A DNA stretch of 44,846 nt from Lachnospiraceae bacterium (GTDB taxonomy: Bacteria; Bacillota; Clostridia; Lachnospirales; Lachnospiraceae), in NCBI GenBank assembly GCA_017474455.1, contig JAFVHP010000006.1, positions 1 to 44,846 of the forward strand. The letters run 5' to 3'. Below the pieces are notes generated by a model. It worked only from the letters and a program-made list of their open reading frames with translations. It was not told where the DNA came from and searched no databases. Below are positions 4,243-38,003 of this stretch, in pieces (position 1 is the stretch's first letter; every line of letters starts with the position of its first letter). The position numbers and the translations under genes are program-made.

Positions 4243-5910
4243 ATGTCTGATGAATACAAACTGAACGTTCCGGCTCCCAGCCATTTTGCTTACGCCGTAC
4301 GAGATATTCCTTCCGTAACTGTGGCACAGCGGGAACGTGCGCTGAAAGCAACACATTATAACGAATTTGCATTCCCTTCAGGTATGCTGACCGTGGATAT
4401 GCTCTCAGATTCCGGCACGACAGCAATGACAAACCATCAATGGGCTTCGCTTTTTCTCGGCGATGAAGCTTATGGCCGTAATACAGGCTACTATGTACTG
4501 CTCGATACATTCCGGGATATTTTTGAGCGCGGCGGGGAAAAGAACTGGAAAAAGGTAATAGACCTTGTGCGCACAGACTGCCGCGATGTGGAAAAGATGA
4601 TGGATGAAGTCTATCTGTGTGAGTATGAAGGCGGTCTCTTTAACGGTGGTGCCGCTCAGATGGAACGTCCCAATGCTTTTATAATTCAGCAGGGCCGCGC
4701 TGCAGAGTCCGTGCTTATGGAGATCGTCAAAAAGATCCTTGCGCAGCGTTATCCGGGTAAAGTATTTACGATTCCCTCAAACGGCCATTTTGATACGACT
4801 GAGGGCAACATTAAACAAATGGGCTCTGTCCCGAGAAATCTGTATAATAAAGAACTGCTCTATGAGGTGCCGGAAGGCGGACGTTATTCCAAAAATCCGT
4901 TTAAGGGAAATATGGATCTGGATAAACTCCGGAAACTGATCGACACCGTCGGACCGGAAAATGTTCCCCTGATCTTTTCCTGCATTACCAATAACCCGGT
5001 TTGCGGACAGGCTGTCGCCATGGCTAACATCCGAGCCGTCAGCGAGATCGCGCACAGCTACAATATCCCATATATACTCGATGCCGCGCGATGGGCTGAG
5101 AATGCATACTTCATTAAAATGAACGAAGAAGGATATGCCGACAAGTCGATCGCCGAGATCGCTACGGAAATGTTCTCATACTGCGACGGTTTTACGATGT
5201 CCGCAAAAAAAGATGGTCACTCCAATATGGGCGGAATGCTCGCATTCCGTGATAAAGGCCTGTTCTGGAAAAACTTCTCGGATTTTAACGAAGACGGCAC
5301 AGTAAAAACAGACGTGGGCGTACTTCTTAAAGTCAAGCAGATCTCCTGTTATGGAAATGACAGCTACGGCGGCATGAGCGGCCGCGATATCATGGCTCTT
5401 TCGGTCGGACTTTATGAAAGCTGCTGCTTTGAATACCTGGATGAGCGCGTCCGCCAGGTCAACTATCTCGCGGAAGGGTTTTATGATGCCGGTATCAAGG
5501 GCGTAGTTCTTCCTGCCGGAGGCCACGCTGTTTACATCAATATGGATGAATTCTTTGACGGCAGGCGGGGACACGATTCGTTTGCCGGTGAAGGTTTTTC
5601 TCTTGAACTGATCCGCCGCTACGGGATCCGTGTTTCAGAACTGGGCGATTACTCAATGGAGTACGATCTGAAGACTCCGGACCAGCAGGCGGAGGTCGCC
5701 AATGTGGTCCGTTTTGCAATAGACCGCAGCCGTTTGACCAAAGAACACCTTGATTATGTGATCGCGGCAGTGAAGGCTTTGTACGAAGACCGTGACTCCA
5801 TCCCCAATATGAGGATCGTCTGGGGCCATAACCTTCCAATGCGTCATTTTCACGCATTCCTTGAGCCGTATGCGCCTTCTGAAGATCAGCTCTGCTGCAA
5901 TAAGAACTGA
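4243..5910 (+). CDS. tnaA: Tryptophanase-family PLP lyase, long form
   Basis: A protein of 555 residues against about 470 for typical tryptophanases. It belongs to the beta-eliminating PLP lyases that split tryptophan into indole, pyruvate and ammonia. Visible family features are GDEAYG (73-78), the QQGRAAE cofactor-phosphate region (149-155), the D280-AARWAENAYF strand with the Asp that contacts the pyridine nitrogen, and SAKKD with the PLP lysine at 323. An insertion of roughly 45-50 residues (about 96-145) separates the first helices from the QGR motif and explains much of the extra length. The late motif reads IRVSELG: Leu stands where tyrosine phenol-lyases carry the phenol-binding Arg, so tryptophanase is favoured. 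AGGAGG precedes ATG. I saw no TnaC-like leader peptide upstream. Confidence 0.88.
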   Translation: MSDEYKLNVPAPSHFAYAVRDIPSVTVAQRERALKATHYNEFAFPSGMLTVDMLSDSGTTAMTNHQWASLFLGDEAYGRNTGYYVLLDTFRDIFERGGEKNWKKVIDLVRTDCRDVEKMMDEVYLCEYEGGLFNGGAAQMERPNAFIIQQGRAAESVLMEIVKKILAQRYPGKVFTIPSNGHFDTTEGNIKQMGSVPRNLYNKELLYEVPEGGRYSKNPFKGNMDLDKLRKLIDTVGPENVPLIFSCITNNPVCGQAVAMANIRAVSEIAHSYNIPYILDAARWAENAYFIKMNEEGYADKSIAEIATEMFSYCDGFTMSAKKDGHSNMGGMLAFRDKGLFWKNFSDFNEDGTVKTDVGVLLKVKQISCYGNDSYGGMSGRDIMALSVGLYESCCFEYLDERVRQVNYLAEGFYDAGIKGVVLPAGGHAVYINMDEFFDGRRGHDSFAGEGFSLELIRRYGIRVSELGDYSMEYDLKTPDQQAEVANVVRFAIDRSRLTKEHLDYVIAAVKALYEDRDSIPNMRIVWGHNLPMRHFHAFLEPYAPSEDQLCCNKN

Positions 5911-7626: not shown

Positions 7627-8748
7627 ATGGATAAGAAAATGAAGATCTTTGCGCTGAACATCGGATCGACATCTACCAAGGTCGCCATGTTCGAAGGCAG
7701 GGAAAAGGTCTATGAAGGAAAGGCGGAGCATGATGCGGGCAGGATCAGGAGCTATAAGTCCATCATGGACCAGAAGGAAATGCGGGTCGAGGGGATCAAA
7801 GAACTGCTGCAAAAGGCCGGGCTGACGCTGGAAGGCTGCGATGCCGTCGTCGCCCGGTGCGGCGGAACCGGCCCTATTCCCGGAGGAACTTATGTCGTTA
7901 ACAAAACACTGGTGGAGAGGCTGACGGACCCGTCCACACACAAGCATAATGCGGACCTGGGAGGTGTGATCGCGGACATGCTGGCCAGGGAGTACGGCTG
8001 TCGTGCTTTCTTCGTGGATTCACCGGAGACGGATGAATTCCAGCCGCTGGCGAGGATCACGGGATTTAAGGATGTGTATAAGGTCTGTTCCACGCACACG
8101 CTGAACCAGAAGGCTGTCTGCCGTTTCTATGCGGAAAAATGCGGGAAAAAGTATCAGGACCTGAACCTGGTCGTCGCGCATATCGGCGGCGGGGTATCCG
8201 TATCCGCGCATCGCAGGGGCCGTATCATTGATTCGACTAACCTTATCAAAGGCGACGGTCCGATGGCGCCGACGAGGAGCGGCGAGATCCAGGCCATGAC
8301 GATCATTGACTTGGCTTATTCCGGCAAGTGGGAGAGAAAGGCGCTGGAAGACCGCGTGAACATGGGCGGCGGCCTGATGGATCATCTGGGTACGGCGGAT
8401 GTCGTGGAGATCCGCAGAAGGATCGATAACGGGGATAAGTATGCGGAATACGTTTATGACGGAATGATCTACCAGATCGGGAAATACATCGGGATGATGG
8501 GAGCCGTGCTGGAAGGCGCAGTCGATGCCGTCCTGCTGACAGGCGGGATCTCCAGGGATGAATATCTCGTGGGGAAACTTAAAAAGATGTGCGGGTATCT
8601 TGCACCGGTCGAAGCCATCGCCGGTGAGTTTGAGATGGAAGCGCTCGGGCTTGGCGCGTATCGTGTCCTCTCCGGGGAGGAAGAAGCCCGTGAATACGAG
8701 GAAGAGTTTACATTTACGGGAATCGAGGACCTGCTGAAGGATTATTGA
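7627..8748 (+). CDS. buk: Butyrate kinase (acetate kinase superfamily)
   Basis: A protein of 373 residues, near the family's usual length of about 355. It catalyses butyryl phosphate + ADP to butyrate + ATP or a related short or branched acyl phosphate. The N-terminal phosphate loop LNIGSTSTKVAMF, the conserved RCGGTGPIPGG and HIGGGVSVSAH, and the late LTGGISRDE adenosine motif are all present. Phosphotransbutyrylase, the usual partner upstream, is absent: the neighbour is a divergent transporter. Instead it heads a run of redox genes with 39 bases to the next start. ATG 7627 has an AGGGA site; an in-frame ATG at 7639 is an alternative. Its real acyl substrate here is unknown. Confidence 0.93.
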   Translation: MDKKMKIFALNIGSTSTKVAMFEGREKVYEGKAEHDAGRIRSYKSIMDQKEMRVEGIKELLQKAGLTLEGCDAVVARCGGTGPIPGGTYVVNKTLVERLTDPSTHKHNADLGGVIADMLAREYGCRAFFVDSPETDEFQPLARITGFKDVYKVCSTHTLNQKAVCRFYAEKCGKKYQDLNLVVAHIGGGVSVSAHRRGRIIDSTNLIKGDGPMAPTRSGEIQAMTIIDLAYSGKWERKALEDRVNMGGGLMDHLGTADVVEIRRRIDNGDKYAEYVYDGMIYQIGKYIGMMGAVLEGAVDAVLLTGGISRDEYLVGKLKKMCGYLAPVEAIAGEFEMEALGLGAYRVLSGEEEAREYEEEFTFTGIEDLLKDY

Positions 8749-8787
8749 CAGGACCTTAAGGAAAAACAGATCAAAGGGGGGAGCGGA

Positions 8788-10062
8788 ATGCATTATGTGA
8801 TCATCGGTTTTGGCTGTGCCGGTTACTATGCTGCCAAGACCATCAGAGAAAACGATACGGGAGGAGAGATCACGGTCTTCAGCGAGCATGGCTACGCGCC
8901 TTACAATCCCATGCTCACGACCTATTATGCGGCGGACAGGATCCCGTTCAGCGCCCTTTTCCCGTTCGGGAGCATGGAGGATATCAGCAGCAGCCTGAAG
9001 CTGGATGTCCGTACCGGAGTAAAGGTCAGTCGTGTCGACGCGAAGGCAAAGACGGTGATCCTGGATAACGGTGAAAAAGTGAACTACGACAGGCTGCTTA
9101 TTTCCACCGGTGCTTCGGCCTTTGCACCGGGCTTTGAAGGTCTGGATCCGGGTGAAGCGTTCTATATGCGCACGGTACAGGACGCAGTCGCGCTGAAGGA
9201 GGAACTGGATCGGAATCCGCATGAGAAGGCTCTTGTCGTTGGCGCTTCCATGGTGGGCATCAAGGTCGTGGAACTGCTGGTGGACCGTGGTATCAGGACG
9301 GTGCTTTCGGATATGGCGCAGAAGATGTTCCCGCTGGCTGCCTATGATGACGTGGCTGCACAGATCGCGGAACGCCTGGAGAAGAAAGGGGTCATCCTGG
9401 AGCTTGGGAATGCCCTGAAGAGTGTGCAGAAGGACGGCGGGCTATATCACTGTTTAATGAACGACGGTACATCTGTCGATGCGGACCTGATCGTACTCTG
9501 TATCGGTACCCGTGCCAATACCGGGATCGTGAATACAGATGAAGTACGCGTCGGGCGAGGCATCATCGTGGATGAGAACATGCGCACGTCGGATCCGGAT
9601 ATCTATGCTGCCGGCGACTGCTGCGAGGGCAATGAGCTGCAGAGCAGCAATACCATGATCATCGGTCTGTGGGCCAACGCCGCCCATCAGGGCACGACGG
9701 CAGGCGCCAATATGGCCGGGGCCAGGGCAGAGTTTGACGGGAACTTCATGCATAATATCACACACTTCATGGATATGGACTTTATCGGATTCGGCGACAA
9801 CCGTATACTGGGTGAAGTTCTCACGTCCGGAAACATCCACAGCGGACTGTTCGTGGAAGCTGTCATGAAGGATCACCGGCTGGCCGGTGTCAACATCCTG
9901 GATAATTACCGTATCAGCGGCGCGATCAAAAACTACCTGTACGCGGTCATGGAGAACGGTGCAGTTGACATTTCGCCGATCCAGAAGGGCATCCTGATCA
10001 AGGAAGGGCTGAAACCTTCGTTCATAGAAAAATTAGAGGGGAATTACAATGCAGAACATTGA
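8788..10062 (+). CDS. FAD-dependent NAD(P)H oxidoreductase (pyridine nucleotide-disulfide fold)
   Basis: A protein of 424 residues. The N-terminal FAD Rossmann motif IIGFGCAG (residues 5-12), the second dinucleotide motif VGASMVG (151-157) for NAD(P)H and the FAD-closing DIYAAGDC (271-278) appear in order, as in NirB-like and rubredoxin/ferredoxin reductases. No CxxxxC redox disulfide is seen, so electrons probably pass from NAD(P)H via FAD to an iron-sulfur partner. A very strong GGGGGGAG site precedes ATG. The 3' end overlaps the molybdenum enzyme by 14 bases, which implies translational coupling. I infer that it is the electron input module for that enzyme. Confidence 0.92.
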   Translation: MHYVIIGFGCAGYYAAKTIRENDTGGEITVFSEHGYAPYNPMLTTYYAADRIPFSALFPFGSMEDISSSLKLDVRTGVKVSRVDAKAKTVILDNGEKVNYDRLLISTGASAFAPGFEGLDPGEAFYMRTVQDAVALKEELDRNPHEKALVVGASMVGIKVVELLVDRGIRTVLSDMAQKMFPLAAYDDVAAQIAERLEKKGVILELGNALKSVQKDGGLYHCLMNDGTSVDADLIVLCIGTRANTGIVNTDEVRVGRGIIVDENMRTSDPDIYAAGDCCEGNELQSSNTMIIGLWANAAHQGTTAGANMAGARAEFDGNFMHNITHFMDMDFIGFGDNRILGEVLTSGNIHSGLFVEAVMKDHRLAGVNILDNYRISGAIKNYLYAVMENGAVDISPIQKGILIKEGLKPSFIEKLEGNYNAEH

Positions 10063-12172
10063 TTATGAGCATGGAAAGATCCCGGGAGAGGAAAGCGGCA
10101 TCGTCTGTAAGCATACGCTCTGCGATATCTGTTCACCGGCCATGCACTGCGGGCTGAACGCTTATGTAAAGGACGGAAAGGTCGTCAAAGTCGAAGGGAT
10201 CGATGGCTTTCCCATGAGTAACGGGAAACTCTGCACCAAAGGCGCAGGCAACAGGCAGTACGTCTACAGGGAAGACCGTGTGCTTTATCCGCTGAAGAGA
10301 GTCGGCGAAAGAGGCGAAGGCAAATTTGAGCGTATCAGCTGGGATGAGGCGATCAGGCTCATTTCAGACAAGTTCCTGCAGGTCCGTAACGAGTACGGGG
10401 CGGACAAAGCGGCCTTTTATTCCGGATACAGCAAGTATTACCGCTTCATGTTCCGGCGGTTTGCCTATGTCTTCGGCTCCCAGCATTACGGTACGGAATC
10501 CAGTGCCTGCATGACCTCCGGCCTGATGGCATGGCTGCTGGCTTCCGGTGTCGGGATGGGCCCCGACCTGATGCGAGCTGACCTGATGATCGGATATGCC
10601 CTGAACGGGTATCATTCCAAATATCCTTTTGTCAATAATACATTGCGGAACAGGGACGGCAGGGGAATGAAGATCGTGATCATCGATCCGCGCATCACAC
10701 CCGGCAGCCAGCGCCTGGGGGACCTGCACCTGCGTCCCCATCTGGGTACGGACGGCGCCCTGGCCCTGTCCATCGCCAACGTCCTGATACGGAATGACTG
10801 GATCGATCATGAATTCATCGATAAGTACGTACACGGCTTTGAAGAATATAAGGCGTATGTGGCGCAGTTCACACCGGAAAAGGGAGAAGAACTGACCGGT
10901 GTCCCTGCCGCGGATATCATTCGGACTGCAGAGATGATCCGCGACGCGAAGAGCGTTTCCGTTGCGGAAAGCAGTACGATGGGCCATCACAGGAACGGTA
11001 TGCAGAACTACAGAGCTATGATGTCGCTGCTCATCATTACCGGCAACGTGGACGTGCCCGGGGGACAGCAGTTCTCACCCAATACGTTCATGGAAAGGTC
11101 AAGCGGATTTGCTACCCATGAGCATGAGTTCGAATGGGACCGCTTCCCGGAGGCTGCCGCGCCGGCGATCGCTTCAGAGAGATTCCCTCTCTGGTATTAT
11201 CTCCGGAAGGACATGCAGGCCATGGATCTGGCCAACAATATCCTGGCGGAAGACGAGAACTCCGTGAAGGTCATGCTGAGCCTCGGTATGAACATCAGAA
11301 TGTTCCCGGATGACCGGAAGCTCATCGAAGCGCTGAAGAAGCTGGAAATGTTCGTGGACGTGGACCTGTTCCTCACCGATACAGCAAAGTACGCGGATAT
11401 TGTGCTGCCCGCGTGCACTTCGCTCGAAAGAGAGCAGTTCATGACCTATCCGGGAGGCAGAGTCTGGTATACGAACCGGGTCATCGAACCGCTGGGTGAA
11501 TCCAGGTCTGATCCCGATATCCTCACGGCGCTGGCCAGGGCAATGGATCTGGATGACGATCTGCTGAAGGCCGGATATGAGGAGTGCATCCGTTATGTCA
11601 TCAGGGATCTGCCGGTCACCATAGAGGAGATGAAGGCGGCCGACCAGCCGATGGTACTGCCCGGATTCAGGCCCGCATGGCCCACCGGATACTGGCTGGA
11701 GAACGGGATCCCTACGCCTACCGGCAAGTTTGAACTGTATTCGTCCGTCATCGGCGATCATCCCGAATGGGGGCTGGATCCGCTGCCGACTTATACAGCA
11801 CCCTGGAATCCGGATCCCGAAAAGTATCCTTTCACGCTCTGTGCGGGGGCGCGCCTTCCCAATGCGCTCCATTCCAGACTCCATGACGTGCCGTGGGAGA
11901 GGAGCCTGCAGCCGGAGCCTTCCGTGGAAATGAGCATGGAGGACGCGGACAGACTGGGGATCGAACTGGGCGACGACGTGGAGATCACCACCGACCTGGG
12001 TTCGCTTACCTTCAAGGCGATCCCCAGCGCCACGATCCTGAAGGGAGAACTGTTCATCTATCACGGATACAGGGAGAAGGATATCAACAGCCTGCTGAAC
12101 GGGGACAATCTGGACCCGTATACGGGCTTTCCCGCATACCGCAGTGCTTACTGCAGTCTGAGGAGGGTATGA
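10049..12172 (+). CDS. Molybdopterin (bis-MGD) oxidoreductase, catalytic subunit, cytoplasmic
   Basis: A protein of 707 residues of the DMSO reductase superfamily. The N-terminal iron-sulfur motif is C25-x2-C28-x5-C34 with C62 in GKLCTKG, followed by the usual YREDRVLYPLKRVG and ISWDEA. SSACMTSGLMA places Cys154 where periplasmic nitrate reductases hold the Mo ligand (CMAS), so Cys154 is the likely metal ligand. VIIDPR and the C-terminal molydop-binding barrel (about 585-705, with LCAGARLPN and the LGIELGDDVEI stretch) follow. There is no twin-arginine signal, so the enzyme is cytoplasmic. The stop overlaps the ferredoxin start. Substrate unknown: nitrate, formate and aromatic dehydroxylase-like roles cannot be separated by eye. 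Confidence 0.93.
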   Translation: MQNIDYEHGKIPGEESGIVCKHTLCDICSPAMHCGLNAYVKDGKVVKVEGIDGFPMSNGKLCTKGAGNRQYVYREDRVLYPLKRVGERGEGKFERISWDEAIRLISDKFLQVRNEYGADKAAFYSGYSKYYRFMFRRFAYVFGSQHYGTESSACMTSGLMAWLLASGVGMGPDLMRADLMIGYALNGYHSKYPFVNNTLRNRDGRGMKIVIIDPRITPGSQRLGDLHLRPHLGTDGALALSIANVLIRNDWIDHEFIDKYVHGFEEYKAYVAQFTPEKGEELTGVPAADIIRTAEMIRDAKSVSVAESSTMGHHRNGMQNYRAMMSLLIITGNVDVPGGQQFSPNTFMERSSGFATHEHEFEWDRFPEAAAPAIASERFPLWYYLRKDMQAMDLANNILAEDENSVKVMLSLGMNIRMFPDDRKLIEALKKLEMFVDVDLFLTDTAKYADIVLPACTSLEREQFMTYPGGRVWYTNRVIEPLGESRSDPDILTALARAMDLDDDLLKAGYEECIRYVIRDLPVTIEEMKAADQPMVLPGFRPAWPTGYWLENGIPTPTGKFELYSSVIGDHPEWGLDPLPTYTAPWNPDPEKYPFTLCAGARLPNALHSRLHDVPWERSLQPEPSVEMSMEDADRLGIELGDDVEITTDLGSLTFKAIPSATILKGELFIYHGYREKDINSLLNGDNLDPYTGFPAYRSAYCSLRRV

Positions 12173-12681
12173 TGGCGTTAAAACTGGAACTTGATCTTTC
12201 AAAATGCTGCAACTGCGGCGCATGTGCGATCGCATGCATGGACCAGAACGATATCGATCTTTCCAAAGGCCAGAGGCCTTTCCGCGTGGTCTTCCGTCAG
12301 GAGACCAGAAAGACCGGGGCCATAGAGTACTATTCCATGTCCTGCATGCACTGTGACAACGCGCCTTGTATCACGGCATGTCCTTCCGGATGCCTCTATA
12401 AGGATCCGGAAACCGGTCTGACGCTCTATGATAATACGAACTGCATCGGCTGCCACAGCTGTGCCATGGCCTGCCCCTTCGGGGCGCCGACCTTTGGACC
12501 CGACAATAAAATGCGCAAATGCGACGGCTGTATCGACCGGGTAAGGGCAGGGCTCCTTCCCGCCTGTGTGAAGGGCTGTACCTTCGATGCCCTGAAGCTT
12601 GTGGATGCCGATGATGATCCGGTGCCGGCAGAGAATTCGCTGGTCGCCATATGCAGGACACTGTCCGACAGGCAGAAATGA
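12172..12681 (+). CDS. Four-cluster [4Fe-4S] ferredoxin subunit (DmsB/NrfC-like)
   Basis: A protein of 169 residues with four cysteine groups: C12/13-C15-C18-C22, C58-C61-C66-C70, C91-C94-C97-C101 and C117-C120-C132-C136. This is the arrangement of electron-transfer subunits of DMSO-reductase-type enzymes, here with no membrane anchor. Two ATGs stand in tandem. The second (12172) sits 5 bases after AGGAGG and shares its A with the stop of the molybdenum subunit, so I prefer it; 12169 is the alternative. It most likely wires the FAD protein to the catalytic subunit. Confidence 0.95.
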   Translation: MALKLELDLSKCCNCGACAIACMDQNDIDLSKGQRPFRVVFRQETRKTGAIEYYSMSCMHCDNAPCITACPSGCLYKDPETGLTLYDNTNCIGCHSCAMACPFGAPTFGPDNKMRKCDGCIDRVRAGLLPACVKGCTFDALKLVDADDDPVPAENSLVAICRTLSDRQK

Positions 12682-12716
12682 GCAGGGACTGATTTACGCT
12701 GAAAGAGCTGATCCTC

Positions 12717-13238
12717 ATGGCCATGCTGGCCGTGATGGGGATGGTGCTGAAGCCTTTCCTTTCGCCGTTGTTCAACCTGCTGACGGATTTCATACGGATC
12801 CCGGGAGGGAGCGCTGTCGCGGGTATCAGTGAACTGTTCCTGGTGGCTGCCGCAGCACTGATCGGGAAAAAGGGAACAGCGCTGATCACAGGGCTGCTGC
12901 AGGGCCTGATCTCACTGACGACGGGAATATCCGCTGCTGCGGGAGTCCTGGTGCTGATCACTTATTCCCTGCCGGGACTGGCTGTTGATCTGGTAATGCT
13001 GTTGCCGGCTTTTGACCGCCTTTCGGTAAAAAACAGGATGATGCTGGCCGGCGGGCTGGGTGTCCTGGCCGGTGCCGCATCGACCAATGTGCTGTATTTC
13101 AGGCTGCCGGTGATACCGTTTATCCTGTTCTATGCCATCGGTATCCTTTCAGGCGCGGCAGGAGGGTGGCTTGCCTGTCTGATCGTTCACCGGCTGCCCG
13201 CATCTGTAAGGGAAGGCATCGGGAAAAACAGGATATAA
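12717..13238 (+). CDS. ECF transporter S-component-like membrane protein
   Basis: A protein of 173 residues with about five to six hydrophobic helices and short loops, resembling substrate-binding S components of energy-coupling factor vitamin transporters (N-terminal ...ELILMAMLAVMGMVLKPF, then GGSAVAG and GKKGTALITGLLQG). The ATG at 12717 has no ribosome binding site. The frame is open upstream to 12693, and a CTG at 12699 would give the more typical S-component start (M)KELILMAMLAV, so the true start may be non-standard. No ECF ATPases or T component are nearby, so it would rely on shared ones. The cargo is unknown; a link to cofactor supply for the molybdenum enzyme is only contextual. 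Confidence 0.7.
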   Translation: MAMLAVMGMVLKPFLSPLFNLLTDFIRIPGGSAVAGISELFLVAAAALIGKKGTALITGLLQGLISLTTGISAAAGVLVLITYSLPGLAVDLVMLLPAFDRLSVKNRMMLAGGLGVLAGAASTNVLYFRLPVIPFILFYAIGILSGAAGGWLACLIVHRLPASVREGIGKNRI

Positions 13239-13275
13239 GAAAAGAGTATTAAGACAGAGGAGATAAGGACAAAAG

Positions 13276-13788
13276 ATGTCAGAAAACAAAAAGAGTATCC
13301 TCAAGATCACTACAACAGTTGTGATCATTGCCATACTGGTCATCCTGGTCATAGTGAACCGGAGGAACGCATCGGTAAACGACGCTATGGCCGCTGCACA
13401 CCGGCTGGAGATCGAGAGCGCGGCCGGCAGCGCCGAATATGCTTTTAGCGAAGACGACACGTATTTTACCTGCTTTGATACACAGATGAGACGAAAGAAC
13501 GGCGATGTTTTTGACAAGCATTATTCCGGGATCGAGTTCCGCCGGATACTGGAAGAAATGGGACTGACAGCTGATGACAGCACAGACTGTGTCTTTATCT
13601 GTGCGGACCAGTATGAGATCAGGGTCGCCGGGAGCGAGATCCGGGAGCCAGGCAATGTATGGCTCGTGACCAGGGAAGACGACCTGCCTCTGGATGAAGA
13701 GCAGGGACCCTTTATGCTGGTCATAAACAATGACGAATTCTCCACCAGATGGGGCCGTCAGATCGTAAAGATAAAAATCGGTGAATAA
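13276..13788 (+). CDS. Membrane-anchored protein with molybdopterin-binding-domain-like fold
   Basis: A protein of 170 residues. An N-terminal transmembrane helix (about 8-28) is followed by an extracytoplasmic domain. The domain's order of motifs, a YxGxxFRRILEEMG helix, a VFICADQYEI strand, LVTREDDLPL, then EEQGPFMLVI and RWGRQIVKIKI, matches small single-domain relatives of the sulfite-oxidase molybdopterin domain. Whether a cofactor is bound is uncertain: a candidate ligand Cys lies in YFTCFD and others in DCVFIC. An AAGGACA site precedes ATG. The end overlaps the MobA fusion gene by 8 bases, which ties it to the cluster. Some relatives may serve as non-catalytic binding proteins. Confidence 0.65.
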   Translation: MSENKKSILKITTTVVIIAILVILVIVNRRNASVNDAMAAAHRLEIESAAGSAEYAFSEDDTYFTCFDTQMRRKNGDVFDKHYSGIEFRRILEEMGLTADDSTDCVFICADQYEIRVAGSEIREPGNVWLVTREDDLPLDEEQGPFMLVINNDEFSTRWGRQIVKIKIGE

Positions 13789-14995
13789 CAGGATAATCGT
13801 CGAAAATGACAGATGTATAAAGAAAGTCTTCCGTGACAGGATCGCATTTGAAAATGAGCGGAAGATCTATGAACTGCCGGGAGCGACGGGATCGGTCCCG
13901 GCGCTTTATTCGTGCGGGGATCTGTGCCTGAATATCGAAAAGAAGAACGGAAAGACCCTTTCGGCGTTTCTGGATGAAACCGGCATATCTTCTGCGAAAA
14001 GATCCTGCCCTGCAGGCCGGGATGCATGCTGCGGAAGCGATGAGATGATCCCGCGTCTTGCGAAAGCTTTAGCTGACTGGATGATACAGTTCCAGGCCGC
14101 CTTTCATGCCGGGACCGGCGACTGGATGGTCAGTGAGGACCTGAATCCGCGGGGGATGCTGGTGACGGATGAGGACCTTCATATCTGCGGGATCGATTTT
14201 GAATACTGGCATATTGGCAGCAAAGAAGAGGCTTTTGCTGCCCTGCCTGCCATGCTCTGTTCCCTGGATCTTGCAGATGACCGGGAAAAACGCCTGGCTG
14301 AGATGGTCTGTGAAAGCTATGGTGATTCCGTAGAAAAGACCCTCCTGGACAGCTGCGTCGAAAAAAGGCTGCAGGAGATCCGGCTTGCCCGGAGCGCCAT
14401 GAAACGCATCAGGGTATCTTCATGCGGGATCCTGGCAGGCGGGAAGGGCTCCCGTATGGGCCATATTGATAAGGCTGGCCTTATGCTGGGAGATTACAGC
14501 TTTCTGGAGCACATCCTGCATACAGTGCAGTGCTTCGACAGGATCCTGGTCAGCACGGCCGAAACGGATCTGCATCCCGGATCAGGCCCTATGGGAGGCC
14601 TGGAAGCCCTGCTCACAGCCTGTCAGACGGATACGCTGCTGGTGATCCCCTGCGATACCCCGCTGATCAGAAGAAGCAGTATCTTCCGGCTGTATCAGGA
14701 GCTGGACGAACAGTGCGAGGCTGTGATATGCCGATGCGGAGGAAGAGTATATCCTACCTTCGGGATCTATCGGAAAGGTATCCTGCCGAAAGTCTGTGCG
14801 GCGGTAAAGGAAAAGGATCTCCGGATGATGTCCCTGCTGGACCGGATCAGCGTCAGATACGCAGAGCTGGATATCGGCAAAGAGCTGCAGAACGTCAATA
14901 CCCCGGAGGATCTGGAGCGCCTCCAAAGGGCATACGAGAGGAGTCACGGGGCCTGTCCCCATGACTTGCGGAACAATTTGGTAAAGAGAGTATGA
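13781..14995 (+). CDS. mobA: Kinase-like domain fused to MobA (molybdenum cofactor guanylyltransferase)
   Basis: A protein of 404 residues in two parts. Residues about 210-404 are MobA: LAGGKGSRMG (218-227) with a following Lys (231), GPMGGL (269-274) and PCDTPLI (290-296). MobA attaches GMP to molybdopterin to make the MGD form needed by DMSO-reductase-type enzymes, matching the enzyme encoded upstream. Residues 1-205 resemble an aminoglycoside/choline-phosphotransferase fold: KKVFRDRIAFENE near the N-terminus, EDLNPRGML (119-127) at the catalytic loop and GIDFEY (137-142) at the metal loop. The catalytic-loop Asn of the usual HGDxxxxN is Gly125, so activity is doubtful. The start is GTG 13781, overlapping the previous gene; the ribosome binding site is weak. 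Confidence 0.88.
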   Translation: MNNRIIVENDRCIKKVFRDRIAFENERKIYELPGATGSVPALYSCGDLCLNIEKKNGKTLSAFLDETGISSAKRSCPAGRDACCGSDEMIPRLAKALADWMIQFQAAFHAGTGDWMVSEDLNPRGMLVTDEDLHICGIDFEYWHIGSKEEAFAALPAMLCSLDLADDREKRLAEMVCESYGDSVEKTLLDSCVEKRLQEIRLARSAMKRIRVSSCGILAGGKGSRMGHIDKAGLMLGDYSFLEHILHTVQCFDRILVSTAETDLHPGSGPMGGLEALLTACQTDTLLVIPCDTPLIRRSSIFRLYQELDEQCEAVICRCGGRVYPTFGIYRKGILPKVCAAVKEKDLRMMSLLDRISVRYAELDIGKELQNVNTPEDLERLQRAYERSHGACPHDLRNNLVKRV

Positions 14996-17481
14996 ATACA
15001 GATCAGCCAAAGAAAATAGAAGTAAGAGGCGCGCGCGTCCATAACCTGAAGAATATCGATGTGGATATTCCGCTTCACAGTATCGTCGGCATAGCAGGCG
15101 TATCCGGTTCCGGAAAATCTTCTCTTGCTCTGGGTGTACTTTATGCCGAGGGGTCAAGACGATATCTGGAATCTCTTTCGACCTATACAAGACGGCGGAT
15201 GACACAGGCTTCGCGGGCCGATGTGGATGAAGTGCTTTATGTTCCTGCATCTCTGGCACTGCACCAGCGGCCGGGTGTTCCCGGGATCCGATCGACTTTC
15301 GGTACGGGCACGGAACTTTTGAACAGCCTGCGGCTGATGTTCTCCAGACTTGCCTCACACCGCTGTCCGAACGGTCACTATGTAAAACCTGGAGTTCAGG
15401 TGGCTTTGATGCAGGAGATCGTCTGCCCGGAGTGCGGAGTGCATTTCTACGGGCCAGGTGCGGAAGAACTTGCTTTCAATTCCCAGGGAGCCTGCAAATG
15501 CTGCGGCGGGACCGGAACGGTACGGACGGTAGACAGGACCACGCTGGTGCCCAATGAAGATCTGACGATCGATGAAGGCGCTGTGGCACCGTGGAATTCA
15601 CTGATGTGGTCGCTGATGACGGATGTCTGCCGGGCCATGGGTGTGAGGACCGATATCCCCTTCAGAGACCTGACTGATGAGGAAAAAGAGATCGTTTACG
15701 ATGGCCCGATGGAAAAGAGGCATATTTTTTACCGGCCTAAGAAGGCGGATACGGCTACTGCCGGTGAGATGGATTTTACTTATTACAGCGCTGTGGCGAC
15801 TGTACTTAACGCGCTGAACAGGGTCAAAGATGAAAAAGGCATGAAGCGTGTGGAGAAATTCCTGAAGGAGGATATCTGCCCGGAATGCCATGGTACGAGA
15901 TTGTCAGAGGAAGCCAGAGCGCCGAGGCTGATGGGGATCTCTCTGGATCAGGCCTGTGCGATGTCCCTGAAGGATTCTATCGGCTGGGTGCGGGAAGTTC
16001 CGGGTTCTATGCCGGACGAGATGAAGCAGATGGCAGCCGGTATCTGCGAGTCTTACCTGGAAGCTGCCGCGCGGCTGATGGAGCTTGGGCTGGGATATCT
16101 TACACTGGACAGGGCAACCTCGACTTTATCTACCGGCGAGCGGCAGCGGATGCAGCTGGCCCGGGCGGTCCGCAACCGGACTACAGGCGTCCTGTATGTA
16201 TTGGATGAACCTTCCATCGGACTGCATCCCGCCAATATCGTCGGGCTGAACGGGGTCATGCATGATCTGGTACGGGATGGTAATTCTGTTCTTCTGGTAG
16301 ATCATGACACGCAGATCCTGAAGGAATCAGACTGGCTCATTGAAATGGGGCCGGAAGCCGGTGCAAAGGGCGGCACAGTGATCGCCGAAGGGACAGTGGA
16401 AGAGATCGGGAGAAGTGATGTCTCTGTCATCGGCGGATACTTAACCGGAAAGCTCCGGCCGTCCCGTCCAGGCAGTGTAAAAGACGCCTTTGCAAACGGT
16501 GAGATCAGGATGGAGACAGATCAGATCCACACAGTAAAGCCGTTGTCAGTCCGTATCCCCAAAGCCGGGCTTACTGTTATAACAGGCGTATCGGGTTCGG
16601 GCAAGACGACTCTGATCCTGGAAAGCCTCGTTCCGGCACTGGACGCTCTCTGCAACGGGAAGAAACTGCCGGAGCATGTGAAATCGGTCGAAGCGGAGGG
16701 AATAAGACATATCAAGCTGATCGATGCGACGCCCATCGGTATCAACGTCCGCTCCACGGTCGCCACATATGCCAACGTGCACGATGAACTCCGCAAGATC
16801 TATGCGAGAACAAAAGCTGCAAAACAATATGGATACAAGGCAGGAGACTTTTCATATAACACAGGGTCTCTCCGATGCCAGGTCTGCGACGGAACAGGGC
16901 AGATATCCCTGGATGTGCAGTTCCTTCCTGATGTGAATATTCCATGTCCCGAATGCCGCGGTTCCCGTTATGGCAAAGATGCCATGAGGATCCGATATAA
17001 GAACAGATCCGGCAGAGAGCTGTCTCTTCCGGAACTTATGGATATGGATGTAAACTCTGCCCTTGATTTCTGCTGTGAGATGAATACGGTACGCTCAAGA
17101 CTGGAGACCCTGCGCGATCTGGGCCTGGGTTATCTGACTCTGGGAGAAGAGACGCCGGGATTGTCCGGCGGAGAGGCGCAGCGCCTTAAGCTTGCGTCCG
17201 AAATGGGCAAAGTGCAGGATGATTCCGTCTTCGTTTTTGACGAACCGACTATAGGCCTTCACCCGAAAGACGTGGAGACACTGCTGAATGTTTTCCAGAC
17301 CCTGATCGGACATGGCGCTGCTGTCATCGTGATCGAGCATGATCTCGATGTGATCCGTTCTGCGGACTATGTTATCGATATGGGCCCGGAAGGCGGTGAA
17401 GGCGGCGGCAGGATAGTGGCCTGCGGGACGCCTGACGAGATCCGGAAGTGTGCGGAGAGTGTGACCGGAAGGTTTTTATAA
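14992..17481 (+). CDS. UvrA-like ABC ATPase lacking the UvrB-binding domain
   Basis: A protein of 829 residues against about 940 for UvrA. Two ABC modules are complete: GVSGSGKSSL and GVSGSGKTTL Walker A motifs, LSTGERQRMQLA and LSGGEAQRLKLA signatures, and DEPSIGLHP and DEPTIGLHP Walker B motifs. A zinc module (CQVC...CPEC) sits in the second half. Between RLASHRCPNGH and LAFNSQGACKCC only about 40 residues occur, where UvrA has about 150 including the UvrB-binding domain. It therefore resembles UvrA2 and drug-resistance paralogues, not the repair subunit. It is coupled to the MobA fusion by a 4-base ATGA overlap. Its role in that operon is unexplained; DNA-damage or intercalator tolerance is family-based inference. 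Confidence 0.92.
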   Translation: MNTDQPKKIEVRGARVHNLKNIDVDIPLHSIVGIAGVSGSGKSSLALGVLYAEGSRRYLESLSTYTRRRMTQASRADVDEVLYVPASLALHQRPGVPGIRSTFGTGTELLNSLRLMFSRLASHRCPNGHYVKPGVQVALMQEIVCPECGVHFYGPGAEELAFNSQGACKCCGGTGTVRTVDRTTLVPNEDLTIDEGAVAPWNSLMWSLMTDVCRAMGVRTDIPFRDLTDEEKEIVYDGPMEKRHIFYRPKKADTATAGEMDFTYYSAVATVLNALNRVKDEKGMKRVEKFLKEDICPECHGTRLSEEARAPRLMGISLDQACAMSLKDSIGWVREVPGSMPDEMKQMAAGICESYLEAAARLMELGLGYLTLDRATSTLSTGERQRMQLARAVRNRTTGVLYVLDEPSIGLHPANIVGLNGVMHDLVRDGNSVLLVDHDTQILKESDWLIEMGPEAGAKGGTVIAEGTVEEIGRSDVSVIGGYLTGKLRPSRPGSVKDAFANGEIRMETDQIHTVKPLSVRIPKAGLTVITGVSGSGKTTLILESLVPALDALCNGKKLPEHVKSVEAEGIRHIKLIDATPIGINVRSTVATYANVHDELRKIYARTKAAKQYGYKAGDFSYNTGSLRCQVCDGTGQISLDVQFLPDVNIPCPECRGSRYGKDAMRIRYKNRSGRELSLPELMDMDVNSALDFCCEMNTVRSRLETLRDLGLGYLTLGEETPGLSGGEAQRLKLASEMGKVQDDSVFVFDEPTIGLHPKDVETLLNVFQTLIGHGAAVIVIEHDLDVIRSADYVIDMGPEGGEGGGRIVACGTPDEIRKCAESVTGRFL

Positions 17482-22821: not shown

Positions 22822-24276
22822 ATGATGGAAAAGATAGAGATCAGGAAGATCAGTATAACCAGGCTGGATACGGACGCGATAGTGAATGCGGCGAATGAAG
22901 GCCTCCGCGCGGGAGGCGGCGTCTGCGGCGCCATATTCAATGAAGCCGGGCACAGCCGGCTTCAGAAGGCCTGTGATGAGATCGGCCATTGTGATACGGG
23001 TTCTGCGGTTATTACTCCGGGGTTTGACCTGAAGGCAGAATATATCATCCATGCGGTCGGGCCGGTCTGGAGAGGCGGTACATACAATGAAGAAAAGCTG
23101 CTTTACAGTGCGTACCGGGAATCATTAAAACTGGCTGTTAAAGCCGGATGCAGGTCGGTCGCCTTTCCGCTGATCTCTGCCGGCATATTCGGATATCCGA
23201 TAAAGGAGGCATGGGAAACAGCTGTCGCCGCGTGCAGGGACTATCTGGAACAGTATCCGGATGCCGGTCTGAGTATCATCTTCGCTGTCCTGGATGATGA
23301 AATATTAAAAACAGGACAGGGAGTCCTTGAAACGGCCTCAAAGTCAGGCACACCAGCCGTGAAGAAAAGTGACTGGAAAGCGCTGGACATGCCGGAGGAG
23401 AATGCGAAATTTATACTGTATCGTCCTTTCTCGGATCAGCAGATGAATACCTTAAGAAAGGGACATATTCCGGAGGCCATGGAAGATAAATGGTTCTGGT
23501 ACATGGAAGGGGAGACGCTGTCTGCCCACAGGAGCTGGACCGGATACTGTATTTACCGGATGGAATTCAAACCGGATAATAAGCACTTCGTGACAGTGAA
23601 CATGAACACTGAACAAACCGGCTTTGGAAGCATGGAAGAAGCTGCAAAAGGACTGAATGACCTGCTTAACTGGTGGGTGCAGGATCATTATGATTATTAC
23701 AGCGAATGGCTGTCAGAAACGGTACAGGGCCTTGAAAAAGCCGGAAAGCTGAAAGAAAAACTGAAGATCAATGGCAATGAATATGATGCTTACTATTTCC
23801 ATAAGCCGGATGGATCGAACGGTTACCTGAGCAACTGGTTTATGTCGGCCTTTGAACTGGAGGGTATCCGCTTTACTTCGGCTGAACAGTACATTATGTA
23901 CCGGAAGTGCCTGCTGTTTGGAGATAAAGACGCAGCAGCGGCAGTCCTGGCGGCAGATGATCCAGGCGTCCAGCAGAAGATCGGGAGAAAAGCAGCGGGT
24001 TATATTGAACCCGTCTGGAGCGGCGCACGTCAGGTAATTGCTATTCAGGGACTCTATGCCAAATTCAGCCAGAATGCTGATCTTAAGGAAATGCTGCTTA
24101 ATACAGGGGATGCATATCTGGTCGAATGTGCAGTGACGGATACAGCCTGGGCATGCGGGATCAGTATAGATGATGACAGAAAATGTGACGCCGCCAACTG
24201 GAAGGGCAGTAATATTCTTGGATCTGCGCTTATGGAAGTCCGGCGGCTTATCAGGGAAGGCCTATCGGTTTCATGA
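22822..24276 (+). CDS. Macro domain + unknown domain + NADAR fusion (ADP-ribose processing)
   Basis: A protein of 484 residues in three parts. Residues 1-170 are a macro domain with DAIVNAANE (18-26), GGGVCGAI (31-38) and PLISAGIFGYP (116-126), which binds ADP-ribose and often removes it or its acetyl esters. Residues about 190-305 form an uncharacterised domain (FILYRPFSD, IPEAMEDKWFWY, HRSWTGYCIY) that I have seen beside ADP-ribosyl hydrolases. Residues about 320-480 are NADAR: GYLSNWF (334-340), SAEQYIMYRK (353-362) and NWKGSNILGSAL (459-470). NADAR proteins remove ADP-ribose from guanine in DNA or act on NAD-derived metabolites. No DarT-like toxin is adjacent. The 3' end overlaps the convergent transporter gene by 6 bases. 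Confidence 0.88.
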   Translation: MMEKIEIRKISITRLDTDAIVNAANEGLRAGGGVCGAIFNEAGHSRLQKACDEIGHCDTGSAVITPGFDLKAEYIIHAVGPVWRGGTYNEEKLLYSAYRESLKLAVKAGCRSVAFPLISAGIFGYPIKEAWETAVAACRDYLEQYPDAGLSIIFAVLDDEILKTGQGVLETASKSGTPAVKKSDWKALDMPEENAKFILYRPFSDQQMNTLRKGHIPEAMEDKWFWYMEGETLSAHRSWTGYCIYRMEFKPDNKHFVTVNMNTEQTGFGSMEEAAKGLNDLLNWWVQDHYDYYSEWLSETVQGLEKAGKLKEKLKINGNEYDAYYFHKPDGSNGYLSNWFMSAFELEGIRFTSAEQYIMYRKCLLFGDKDAAAAVLAADDPGVQQKIGRKAAGYIEPVWSGARQVIAIQGLYAKFSQNADLKEMLLNTGDAYLVECAVTDTAWACGISIDDDRKCDAANWKGSNILGSALMEVRRLIREGLSVS

Positions 24277-25848: not shown

Positions 25849-25957
25849 ACCAGGTATAAACTCTTATCCTTTCCGGCAGGAGATGTCAGGACTGTTCAGT
25901 ATCAACTGATCATATATTTTACAATACAATCCTGTCCTGTTGCTATGCCGCGTTGTT

Positions 25958-25986
25958 TTTACATTAAAAACAGTCAGGGATATACT
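25958..25986 (+). promoter_or_regulatory. Sigma-A promoter of the hydrogenase-sensor operon
   Basis: The -35 hexamer TTTACA (25958-25963) and the -10 hexamer TATACT (25981-25986) are separated by exactly 17 bases, each one mismatch from consensus. The transcript would start near 25993, giving a leader of about 55 bases before the GTG at 26048. Confidence 0.75.
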
Positions 25987-26047
25987 ATTCAATATAACTT
26001 CGATAAGTTGGAGCTTTATAGCGTTCGATCAAAAAGGAGATAATAAC

Positions 26048-26287
26048 GTGACAGTAACGATCTGTGTAGGTTCTTCCTGCCATATAAAGGGATCCCGCCA
26101 AGTGGTGGAACAGCTGCAGGAACTGATTGCCGGGGAAAACCTTAGTGATAAAATTATATTAAGCGGGACCTTTTGTCTGAACAAATGCCAACAGGGTGTA
26201 TGTGTCACTGTAGATGACGAATTCTTTTCCGTGTCGCCTGAAACTGTGTCGTCATTCTTTGAAAAAGTAATAAAAGCGAGGTTATAG
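26048..26287 (+). CDS. Thioredoxin-like [2Fe-2S] ferredoxin (NuoE/HydC-type)
   Basis: A protein of 79 residues starting at GTG 26048, with AAGGAG about 8 bases upstream. The open frame extends further 5' but the extra residues do not look like protein. The four cluster ligands follow the NuoE pattern: C6-x4-C11 near the N-terminus, then C-x3-C in FCLNKCQQGVC. This is the short single-domain form of the subunit that carries electrons in NADH dehydrogenase and electron-bifurcating hydrogenases. The next gene begins 3 bases after the stop. It probably exchanges electrons with that hydrogenase-like protein. Confidence 0.88.
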   Translation: MTVTICVGSSCHIKGSRQVVEQLQELIAGENLSDKIILSGTFCLNKCQQGVCVTVDDEFFSVSPETVSSFFEKVIKARL

Positions 26288-26290
26288 ATC

Positions 26291-27967
26291 ATGCCGAACT
26301 GTCTGACACTGAAAAAATCCAACTGCAAAAACTGTTATAAGTGTATCCGTTACTGTCCGGTGAAATCCATCCGGTTTTCCGGAAACCAGGCCCACATCAT
26401 CGGCAATGAGTGTATACTGTGCGGCCGCTGTTTCGTAGTATGTCCGCAGAATGCCAAGGAGATCGTGGATGAAACGGAAAAAGCCAAAGTGCTGATACAG
26501 AGCGGTGATCCGGTGGTGGTATCCCTTGCGCCGTCCTTTGTGGCCAATTATGAAGGCGTGGGCATTGAATCCATGCGGGAAGCGCTGAAGAAGCTGGGCT
26601 TTTACGACGTGGAGGAAACCGCCCTGGGAGCCACGCTGGTCAAGCGTGAATACGACCGTATCCTGAAGGAGGAAGACAGGGACATTGTTATCTCTTCCTG
26701 CTGCCATTCAGTCAACCTGCTCATCCAGAAGTATTTTCCGCAGGCACTGCCGTATCTGGCCGATGTACTTTCGCCGATGCAAGCCCATTGCGAGGATATC
26801 AAACGACGTATACCCAACGCCAAAACGGTATTCATCGGTCCCTGCGTTGCGAAAAAAGATGAAGCGGAATACTACGGGGGCAGCGTAGACGCTGTGCTGA
26901 CCTATGAGGAACTGACCGAATGGCTGAAAAAAGAAGGGGTCGAGCTTAAACAGGAAAAACACCAGGACCCCTGCAGTCTGGCCCGTTTCTTTCCTACGAC
27001 CGGCGGAATCCTTAAAACTATGGCGAAGGACGCGCCTGGCTATACATATCTTGCACTGGATGGAGTAGAGAACTGTATCGCGGCTCTGAAGGAGATCGAA
27101 CAGGGCAGGATCCACCGCTGTTTCATCGAAATGAGCGCATGCACGGGCAGCTGCGCGGGCGGCCCGGTGATGGAAAAGCATGGCCGCAGTCCGGTAAAGG
27201 ATTATCTGGCCGTGGCGGAGTACGCCGGGGACAGGGATTTTGAGATCAGTCAGCCGGAGATCCGTGATCTGCACAAGCACCTCGAGCCTATTGACCGGTG
27301 GGCGTCCGTGCCCAATGAAGAAGAGATCCGTGCGATCCTCCGGGAGATGGGGAAATTCAAGCCCAGCCAGGAGCTGAATTGCGGCTCCTGCGGCTACAAC
27401 ACCTGCCGTGAAAAGGCCGTCGCCATCTACCAGGGCAAGGCGGAGATCTCCATGTGCATGCCTTATCTGATGGAAAAAGCGGAGAATGTCAGCGACACCA
27501 TCTCCCGCAACAGCCCTAACGGCATTCTGATGCTTAATGACATGTTGGAGGTTCAGCAGATCAATCCCGCAGCCCTTAAGATCCTGAATCTGAGATCGGG
27601 AAGCGCTGTCCTGGGTGATCAAGTGGTCCGGATCCTGGATCCTACGCCTTTCCTTAAAGTGAGGGACACCGGCCGGGGGATTTTCAACCAGCGTACTTAC
27701 CTGGCGGAATATGACTGCACTGTCGAGCAGACCATCGTGCCTGCCGAGGATGGGCGAATGCTGCTGTGCATCATGCGCGATATCAGCCGGGAAGAGGAAG
27801 CCCGCAGGCAGAAGGAAGAGCTCAGCCGTCAGACAGTGGAAGTAGCCGATAAGGTGGTGGACAAGCAGATGCGTATCGTTCAGGAGATCGCCAGTCTGCT
27901 GGGGGAGACCGCTGCCGAGACCAAGATCGCTCTGTCCAAACTCAAGGAGTCTATTACTAATGAATGA
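26291..27967 (+). CDS. [FeFe]-hydrogenase-like sensor protein with PAS domain (HydS type)
   Basis: A protein of 558 residues. Two [4Fe-4S] ferredoxin motifs (C12-15-18-22 and C41-44-47-51) precede the H-cluster domain (about 70-300), then a four-Cys iron-sulfur motif (C364, C367, C372, C389), a PAS domain (about 403-500) and a C-terminal helix. The H-cluster loops are altered: L1 is SSCCHS (canonical TSCCP), L2 is GPCVAKK (Met replaced by Gly183) and L3 is MSACTGSC (Met replaced by Ser282). The cluster Cys residues 138, 185, 284 and 288 remain, and so does the proton-relay Cys137. The domain order and the neighbouring phosphatase fit putative sensory hydrogenases, which sense rather than turn over H2 rapidly. 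It overlaps the next gene by 8 bases. Confidence 0.9.
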   Translation: MPNCLTLKKSNCKNCYKCIRYCPVKSIRFSGNQAHIIGNECILCGRCFVVCPQNAKEIVDETEKAKVLIQSGDPVVVSLAPSFVANYEGVGIESMREALKKLGFYDVEETALGATLVKREYDRILKEEDRDIVISSCCHSVNLLIQKYFPQALPYLADVLSPMQAHCEDIKRRIPNAKTVFIGPCVAKKDEAEYYGGSVDAVLTYEELTEWLKKEGVELKQEKHQDPCSLARFFPTTGGILKTMAKDAPGYTYLALDGVENCIAALKEIEQGRIHRCFIEMSACTGSCAGGPVMEKHGRSPVKDYLAVAEYAGDRDFEISQPEIRDLHKHLEPIDRWASVPNEEEIRAILREMGKFKPSQELNCGSCGYNTCREKAVAIYQGKAEISMCMPYLMEKAENVSDTISRNSPNGILMLNDMLEVQQINPAALKILNLRSGSAVLGDQVVRILDPTPFLKVRDTGRGIFNQRTYLAEYDCTVEQTIVPAEDGRMLLCIMRDISREEEARRQKEELSRQTVEVADKVVDKQMRIVQEIASLLGETAAETKIALSKLKESITNE

Positions 27968-35611: not shown

Positions 35612-37637
<2,026 letters not shown>

Positions 37638-37649
37638 GGCCTGACCGGT

Positions 37650-38003
37650 ATGAGAAAATACGCCTGGCTCAGGGAACCCTTTCAATACAACGAAAGCGGT
37701 CGGATATATAAAGTAATGCTTTATGAGACTGAAGAAGGATCTTATCTTTTCGGGTATGGCAGTGCGGAAGCGGTCCGGTGCTCATTTGACCGTTTTTATG
37801 CTTCGGTCGAAGAACTGCATGAAGACTGGGACGATCTGATCGATGAAAGAGGCTGGATCGGGATCGAAGATCCTCTGCCATACTGCCAGCACGACGCTTT
37901 TATTCCGGTCCGGGTGAAAGGCCGTAATATCGGCAGACCGGAATGGGGAAAATACGAAATACTAATGGACGGGGAGTGGTTTGATTACACTCCCTCGCCA
38001 TAG
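37650..38003 (+). CDS. Hypothetical protein, 117 residues
   Basis: I do not recognise this protein. It is acidic and rich in aromatic residues (RKYAWLREPFQYNESGRIYKV, DRFYASVEELHEDW, GWIGIEDPLPYCQHDAFIPV), and soluble without a signal peptide. It starts 12 bases after the arabinofuranosidase stop with a weak TAAGG-like site, so it is probably expressed with it. The compact alternating pattern suggests a small alpha/beta protein. Immunity-like or sugar-related roles are guesses. Confidence 0.65.
   Translation: MRKYAWLREPFQYNESGRIYKVMLYETEEGSYLFGYGSAEAVRCSFDRFYASVEELHEDWDDLIDERGWIGIEDPLPYCQHDAFIPVRVKGRNIGRPEWGKYEILMDGEWFDYTPSP

Follow-up and report, generated by a model that had tools for sequence, protein, structure and literature searches.

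Gene content of the cluster

We analysed a 44,846-nucleotide stretch of DNA from a Lachnospiraceae bacterium (assembly GCA_017474455.1, contig JAFVHP010000006.1; hereafter the window), in which seven reading frames are packed tightly on the forward strand between positions 7627 and 14995. The original prediction for this locus, made from the sequence alone, described seven same-strand genes with overlaps of 14, 1 and 8 bases, and the gene calls confirm it: the overlaps fall at the FAD/MOP, MOP/Fe-S and SUOX/kinase-MobA junctions, respectively. The remaining junctions are gaps of 39 (butyrate kinase/FAD), 35 (Fe-S/ECFS) and 37 (ECFS/SUOX) bases. Six of the genes, from 8788 to 14995, constitute the conserved unit: an FAD/NAD(P)H oxidoreductase (FAD), a molybdenum enzyme (MOP), an Fe-S protein (FES), the S-component of an energy-coupling factor (ECF) transporter (ECFS), a protein with the sulfite oxidase fold (SUOX) and a kinase-MobA fusion (Table 1). 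Together they probably encode a soluble enzyme of the bis-molybdopterin guanine dinucleotide (bis-MGD) type along with a module of its own that supplies molybdenum cofactor (Moco) by salvage. Support for this reading is computational throughout: gene order, protein families, riboswitches and the fact that MoaA, MoaC, MoeA and ModB were not found. A scan for promoters and terminators returned matches at chance level only.

Table 1. Features of the cluster (positions in the window).
Feature	Position	Strand	Evidence or remark
Butyrate kinase (neighbour, not part of the unit)	7627-8748	+	TIGR02707, 381 bits (cut-off 289)
FAD/NAD(P)H oxidoreductase (FAD)	8788-10062	+	Pyr_redox_2 PF07992, 184 bits; adjoins MOP in relatives
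Molybdenum enzyme, DMSO-reductase family (MOP)	10049-12172	+	PF00384, PF01568, PF04879
DmsB-like ferredoxin (FES)	12172-12681 (alternative start: ATG at 12169)	+	PF13247; adjoins MOP in relatives
Fe-S/ECFS junction	12682-12716	+	Site of the Moco riboswitch in relatives; none in the window
ECF transporter S-component (ECFS)	12717-13238	+	PF09819, 35.2 bits (cut-off 25.2)
Membrane-anchored SUOX-fold protein, proposed pterin receptor	13276-13788	+	PF00174, 21.0 bits (cut-off 24)
Kinase-MobA fusion, whole gene	13781-14995	+	
Kinase-like domain of the fusion	13781-14407	+	hhalign 99.8% to stand-alone kinases adjoining MobB
MobA domain of the fusion	14408-14995	+	NTP_transf_3 PF12804, 85 bits (cut-off 27)

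The first three genes of the unit form a redox triad. MOP carries the Molybdopterin, Molydop_binding and Fe4S4 domains, and five of its cysteines are invariant in all 26 MOP proteins aligned: C25, C28, C34 and C62, which belong to the 4Fe-4S site, and C154, which judged by its place is the likely metal ligand. It thus has the molybdopterin and dinucleotide-binding domains, the cluster cysteines and the ligand residue of a bis-MGD enzyme of the DMSO-reductase family. Its best matches of solved structure are thiosulfate reductase, formate dehydrogenases and acetylene hydratase, and no second MOP match was found in the genome at E 0.001. As originally predicted, the N-terminus of the MOP translation holds no twin-arginine motif. 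The Fe-S protein is DmsB-like, with a score below the equivalog cut-off, and electrons may flow to the enzyme from NAD(P)H. Of the redox set first proposed, the soluble FAD protein, the four-cluster-type Fe-S protein, the bis-MGD-type enzyme and MobA all stand, and their order is kept beyond this strain; the acyl-phosphate part does not (see below). The triad recurs in other genomes. More distant triads or MOPs adjoin genes that, named by eye, encode MalY-type lyases, MmgE/PrpD and racemase-like proteins, M20 hydrolases or a UbiD-like protein; these neighbours point to no single substrate for MOP.

Two membrane proteins and a kinase-like part were originally listed within the redox cluster, but by family they are not redox components: they are an ECF S-component, a SUOX-fold protein and a kinase-like domain. 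Together with MobA they look like a cofactor-acquisition module. No EcfA or EcfT gene is labelled adjoining the window cluster (no genome-wide search was made for them). The SUOX-fold protein shows weak similarity to its fold, below the family cut-off, behind a single hydrophobic stretch; in two relatives with loci of the same, compact, type the protein passes PF00174 (25.3 and 28.4 bits). The only cysteine invariant in all eight SUOX-fold sequences is C109, behind a YSGIE motif, and no invariant cysteine occupies the site that we take, from the YedY/SUOX motif, to be that of the molybdenum-binding cysteine. The residue that marks a catalytic sulfite oxidase is therefore missing from the SUOX-fold protein.

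The MobA domain retains the catalytic motif residues in 9/9 sequences, and falls short of the MobA equivalog cut-off (TIGR02665, 96.4 versus 151.85 bits). The kinase domain of the window matches no Pfam family at E 0.1; the profile of its family finds Bud32, RIO, amicoumacin and choline kinases, with weaker matches to many protein kinases. Of the residues expected in a kinase of the APH/RIO type (a catalytic Asp plus an Asn and an Asp that bind Mg), D120 and D139 are present in all ten kinase sequences and N125, the Mg-binding asparagine, in nine.

Conservation of the module in relatives

Among 299 genomes of the family, a MOP homologue (E 1e-100) was detected in 16, one of which is the window's own; judged by their titles, the closest relatives are mostly rumen and gut metagenome assemblies. 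Comparison of 17 loci shows ECFS, SUOX and kinase-MobA adjoining the triad in nine relatives, in line with it in seven (L023, L024, L025, L026, L027, L101 and L102; loci and genomes carry L and G numbers) and convergent in two (L092 and L093). Because the triad recurs elsewhere and the three genes adjoin it in nine relatives, the gene order exceeds what chance would give. Co-occurrence had been suggested as a check on all seven families: six are kept together in relatives, and butyrate kinase had no match in the loci compared. Locus L022 stops within ECFS, and another contig of the same genome (L094) holds ECFS, SUOX and the fusion. At L021 the fusion directly follows the Fe-S gene; ECFS and SUOX form a divergent pair at another site in this genome (L095). 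Neither an ECFS nor the kinase, used as query against plasmids, gave a match.

Some copies are interrupted: in two metagenome assemblies the kinase-MobA gene occupies two frames (L027, 13995-15073) and ECFS carries an in-frame stop (L024, 3376-3882; excluded from alignments). Downstream in the window an eighth gene, encoding a short UvrA paralogue (829 aa, 14992-17481), shares 4 bases with the end of the kinase-MobA gene; in the 17 loci of relatives, the module has no full match to it alongside.

Two genomes are informative. In the tree of 26 MOP proteins, G307 groups within a clade whose genomes bear the module (clade support 0.997; support for its exact place 0.19-0.30); it has MoaA, MoaC and ModB, gives no SUOX hit and encodes a MobA without a kinase domain. 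The kinase accompanies ECFS-SUOX and is absent from the MobA of G307, which fits a role on an imported compound; G261 is an exception. This second genome (100% complete, of the window's family) carries divergent ECFS, SUOX and MobA genes adjoining a formate dehydrogenase gene (TIGR01591, 842 versus 666 bits), and no match to MoaC or ModB was found in it. We regard G261 as an independent case: a bis-MGD-type enzyme, ECFS-SUOX-MobA with a Moco riboswitch, and neither MoaC nor ModB matched.

Riboswitches and the wider ECF family

Apart from the window, the Moco riboswitch class RF01055 lies directly upstream of ECFS in all 11 compact loci scanned that hold this gene (Rfam, gathering score: L022, L023, L024, L025, L027, L092, L093, L095, L101, L102 and L129); L026 and L094 lay outside the RNA scans, and no aptamer was found in L021 or in the L028 locus of G307. 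Printed alignments show the P3 stem in all 11 compact aptamers. According to the available text of PMC2408646, forms with P3 are linked with Moco; in 17 of 19 organisms, those without it are linked with tungsten-cofactor genes.

The ECFS profile matched 21 of 391 genomes of the class, again counting the window's own. The other 20, together with G423 (L103), gave 21 wider loci (that of G261 among them), in which BLAST with the parts of the G423 locus (1e-8) found a MobB-like gene in 17, a small SUOX gene in 18 and a stand-alone kinase gene in 16. EcfA/EcfT genes adjoin ECFS in 19 of the 21, hereafter the full type; one locus (L145, genome G534) has an ECFS-like gene without the other parts. The kinase families of the two types match one another (hhalign, 99.8%), as do the SUOX families (99.8%; 98.5% for the pair from G261 and G305), and full-type SUOX proteins pass PF00174. 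Against the PDB, the full-type SUOX profile matches sulfite dehydrogenase, the Oxidored_molyb-domain protein 7kom (1.7e-4) and PruR (7kos, 4.9e-4). PruR is described in the available text of PMC13259868 as a periplasmic protein that binds pterins and is without the molybdenum-binding cysteine; the same source calls the route of pterins across membranes unknown.

RF01055 was found in 16 of 20 wider loci (G261 excluded), with 20 aptamers in total. None of the 20 has P3, as judged by alignment for five, by spacing for 11 and by reading the strings for four (L136, L140, L144 and L146). Genes resembling Moa/Moe and tungstate transporters adjoin L130 and L137, and a gene resembling tungsten aldehyde oxidoreductase adjoins L103 (all by eye). 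From the P3 split and these neighbours, the compact type appears to be linked to Moco and the full type to the tungsten cofactor.

Very large proteins (646, cut, to 1515 aa) are encoded next to full-type operons (L133, 1165-5703; L136, 1234-5772; L137, 895-5442; L138, 1-1940), each with an RF01055 element of its own; that of L137, the one scanned, has SLH and PF00174 domains.

Moco synthesis genes in carrier and non-carrier genomes

If SUOX, ECFS, kinase and MobA supply cofactor, then genomes that carry them may be without Moco synthesis. Set A comprised the 13 genomes with the compact module (G000, which is the window's, G261, G299-G306, G308, G371 and G410; G305 enters through its divergent pair, with a SUOX hit of just 4.9e-4). 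Apart from G261, these may be related and do not serve as independent counts; Fisher values, which take no account of kinship, carry no weight as proof here. Set B comprised ten genomes that have a MOP homologue but gave no SUOX hit (G262, G191, G253, G229, G298, G219, G050, G021, G117 and G307).

MoaC was found in none of the 13 set A genomes, and ModB above cut-off in none (weaker matches, to other permeases, occur in 11); MoaA above cut-off (weak matches fall below it) and MoeA were each found in none of ten, G261, G371 and G410 being outside these two counts. Set B has MoaC in 9/10 genomes (missing in G021), ModB in 10/10, MoaA in 10/10 and MoeA in 9/10 (missing in G307). For the window's own genome, 96.55% complete, none of MoaA, MoaC, MoeA and ModB was found, and the bacterium seems unable to make Moco and seems to be without ModABC. 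With neither MoeA nor ModB, the cargo would be the metal-loaded cofactor rather than the metal or cyclic pyranopterin monophosphate (cPMP).

Several genomes were excluded from the counts. G136 was scored for MOP alone, which it has. G267, of the window's genus, gave no MOP at the limit used; it has MoaC and MoaA, no MoeA, and a ModB score of 180.0 bits against 182.6. MoaC and ModB are present in all four of G231, G085, G159 and G295, for which SUOX lay outside the tests.

A proposed salvage route and its alternatives

The cluster is most likely an uncharacterised molybdenum enzyme with a Moco salvage module, for which we infer the cargo, the kinase substrate and the order of steps as follows. 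The SUOX-fold protein would capture a Moco-type pterin outside the cell and the S-component, powered by a shared ECF energising module, would bring it in. The kinase domain would then put back the phosphate lost outside (dephospho-Moco is a tentative choice of substrate), and the fused MobA would add guanosine monophosphate (GMP) to give the dinucleotide cofactor for MOP. In relatives, though not in the window copy, which is without the element, the Moco riboswitch would restrict synthesis of the importer to times of Moco shortage.

A number of observations weigh against this proposal. No RF01055 element was detected in the window at gathering score or at E up to 5. The N-terminus of the window ECFS is shortened: residues conserved at the N-terminus are encoded upstream of the first ATG, after an in-frame TGA at 12690 (alignments A3/A5), and the profile match (12690-13226) has one TGA inside. 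With the Fe-S stop and the ECFS frame only a few bases apart and the TGA in frame, the window lacks both the riboswitch and the region where ECFS usually starts; we read the junction as a deletion in, or decay of, the window copy. The window kinase, moreover, has glycine in place of N125. Taken together, these three features suggest a copy that may be decaying or constitutive. Compact SUOX profiles alone gave no sensible PDB match, and the pocket of PruR is, in the review PMC13259868, as far as its text is available, probably too small for full Moco. The G261 stretch showed no kinase (BLAST to G423 parts at 1e-8). Genome G309 has no MoaA, MoaC or MoeA and yet gives no SUOX hit; it stands outside the counts. 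MoaC occurs in 16 of 19 full-type genomes, so the wider ECF family extends beyond auxotrophs. Finally, completeness is given for only two of the 13 compact genomes, and the searches of the window's genome did not cover EcfA/EcfT, MoaD, MoaE, MogA or other molybdate and tungstate transporters. (The G309 locus, L031, bears a MOP gene cut by the contig end.)

Improbable, if the best surviving of the alternatives, is that the cargo of the ECF module is molybdate or tungstate and that the SUOX-fold protein and kinase are accessories. The Moa/Moe-like and tungstate-transporter-like genes near two full-type loci would suit such import, as would the cofactor riboswitches of full-type operons, a class that controls metal transporters too (PMC2408646, available text). 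Compact genomes, however, show no MoaA, MoaC or MoeA, so that imported metal alone could not become Moco, and the kinase would have no role; plain metal import is disfavoured for the compact type. Slightly less probable again is the import of a small pterin by ECFS and SUOX for folate or signalling, with Moco made by an unknown pathway. PruR, which the full-type SUOX profile matches, binds small pterins (PMC13259868, available text), and the available text of a 2018 survey raises the possibility of new Moco biosynthetic components (PMC6147048); set against this are the Moco-type riboswitches that control the module, its neighbours (MobA, MobB and bis-MGD enzymes) and ModB, which was likewise not found.

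We consider it unlikelier still that MOP and the genes around it are relics, or that they represent a molybdenum-independent form without cofactor supply. The altered or missing ECFS N-terminus, riboswitch and kinase asparagine of the window and the ECFS in-frame stop of L024 would fit decay, but the MOP Fe-S and ligand cysteines are kept in 26/26 proteins, the other frames of the window are open, and the module is retained beside the triad in nine relatives. Least probable of all, and rejected here, is the original prediction that butyrate kinase works with the redox chain in a single pathway whose acyl-phosphate product would yield ATP: strand and the 39-base gap speak for it, but butyrate kinase has no match in 49 related loci or in a further set of 17 (11 of which show at least 2 kb upstream of the triad), and the genome holds two more copies above the family cut-off elsewhere.

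Beyond the cluster, the window contains a macro domain fused to a NADAR domain (22822-24273); a thioredoxin-like [2Fe-2S] protein, an [FeFe]-hydrogenase-like protein with a PAS-like match and a SpoIIE phosphatase in a row (25940-29129); a tryptophanase-family lyase of 555 aa against a 463-position model (4243-5910); and three successive frames that to the eye resemble one broken arabinofuranosidase gene (36115-38003).

Implications and relation to known systems

According to the available text of the 2018 survey, 292 non-nitrogenase and 13 nitrogenase bacteria have Moco enzymes without a complete Moco pathway, and most of these also are without known molybdenum transporters, a finding left unexplained (PMC6147048). 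For such bacteria the cluster would supply an explanation that names the genes. It is reasonably likely that gut and rumen bacteria possess a complete Moco salvage system (a SUOX receptor, a riboswitch-controlled ECF importer and kinase-MobA activation of metal-loaded cofactor) that accounts for some of these orphan molybdenum-enzyme bacteria, with a sister system for the tungsten cofactor. If true, Moco is a good shared among microbes, Moco synthesis can no longer be deduced from the presence of a molybdenum enzyme, and a new cargo is added to those of ECF importers.

No report of a bacterial Moco importer was found in the literature searched (open-licence PMC), nor were the cargo, the receptor pairing or the kinase-MobA fusion; the ECF transporter type is already known. 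The closest published suggestion is one sentence in the available text of PMC12282271 on molybdopterin uptake by type 11 secretion proteins.

Individual parts resemble known systems. Thiosulfate reductase (2vpw) and acetylene hydratase (2e7z), DMSO-reductase family members among the best solved sequence matches of MOP, differ from it in that MOP is partnered by an FAD gene and that no substrate is known for it. PruR (7kos), like the SUOX-fold protein, is a single SUOX-like domain of ∼170 aa outside the cytoplasm and without the molybdenum-binding cysteine; PruR signals through DcpA, whereas the protein described here partners a transporter, and its pterin binding is proposed. Dietary Moco use by Caenorhabditis elegans (PMC9793310) likewise takes mature Moco from outside, in an animal and by an unknown transport mechanism. 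The RF01055 regulon (PMC2408646) also has the aptamer ahead of cofactor-supply genes; here the gene behind it encodes an importer and the synthesis genes were not found in the genomes concerned, and the word ECF is absent from the main text of that paper. ECF vitamin importers with salvage enzymes, such as the queuosine system QrtT with QueK/QueL (available text of PMC11477304), share the small S-component, the intracellular re-use enzymes and the riboswitch; what sets the present module apart is its proposed Moco cargo, its SUOX-fold partner and a kinase fused to MobA.

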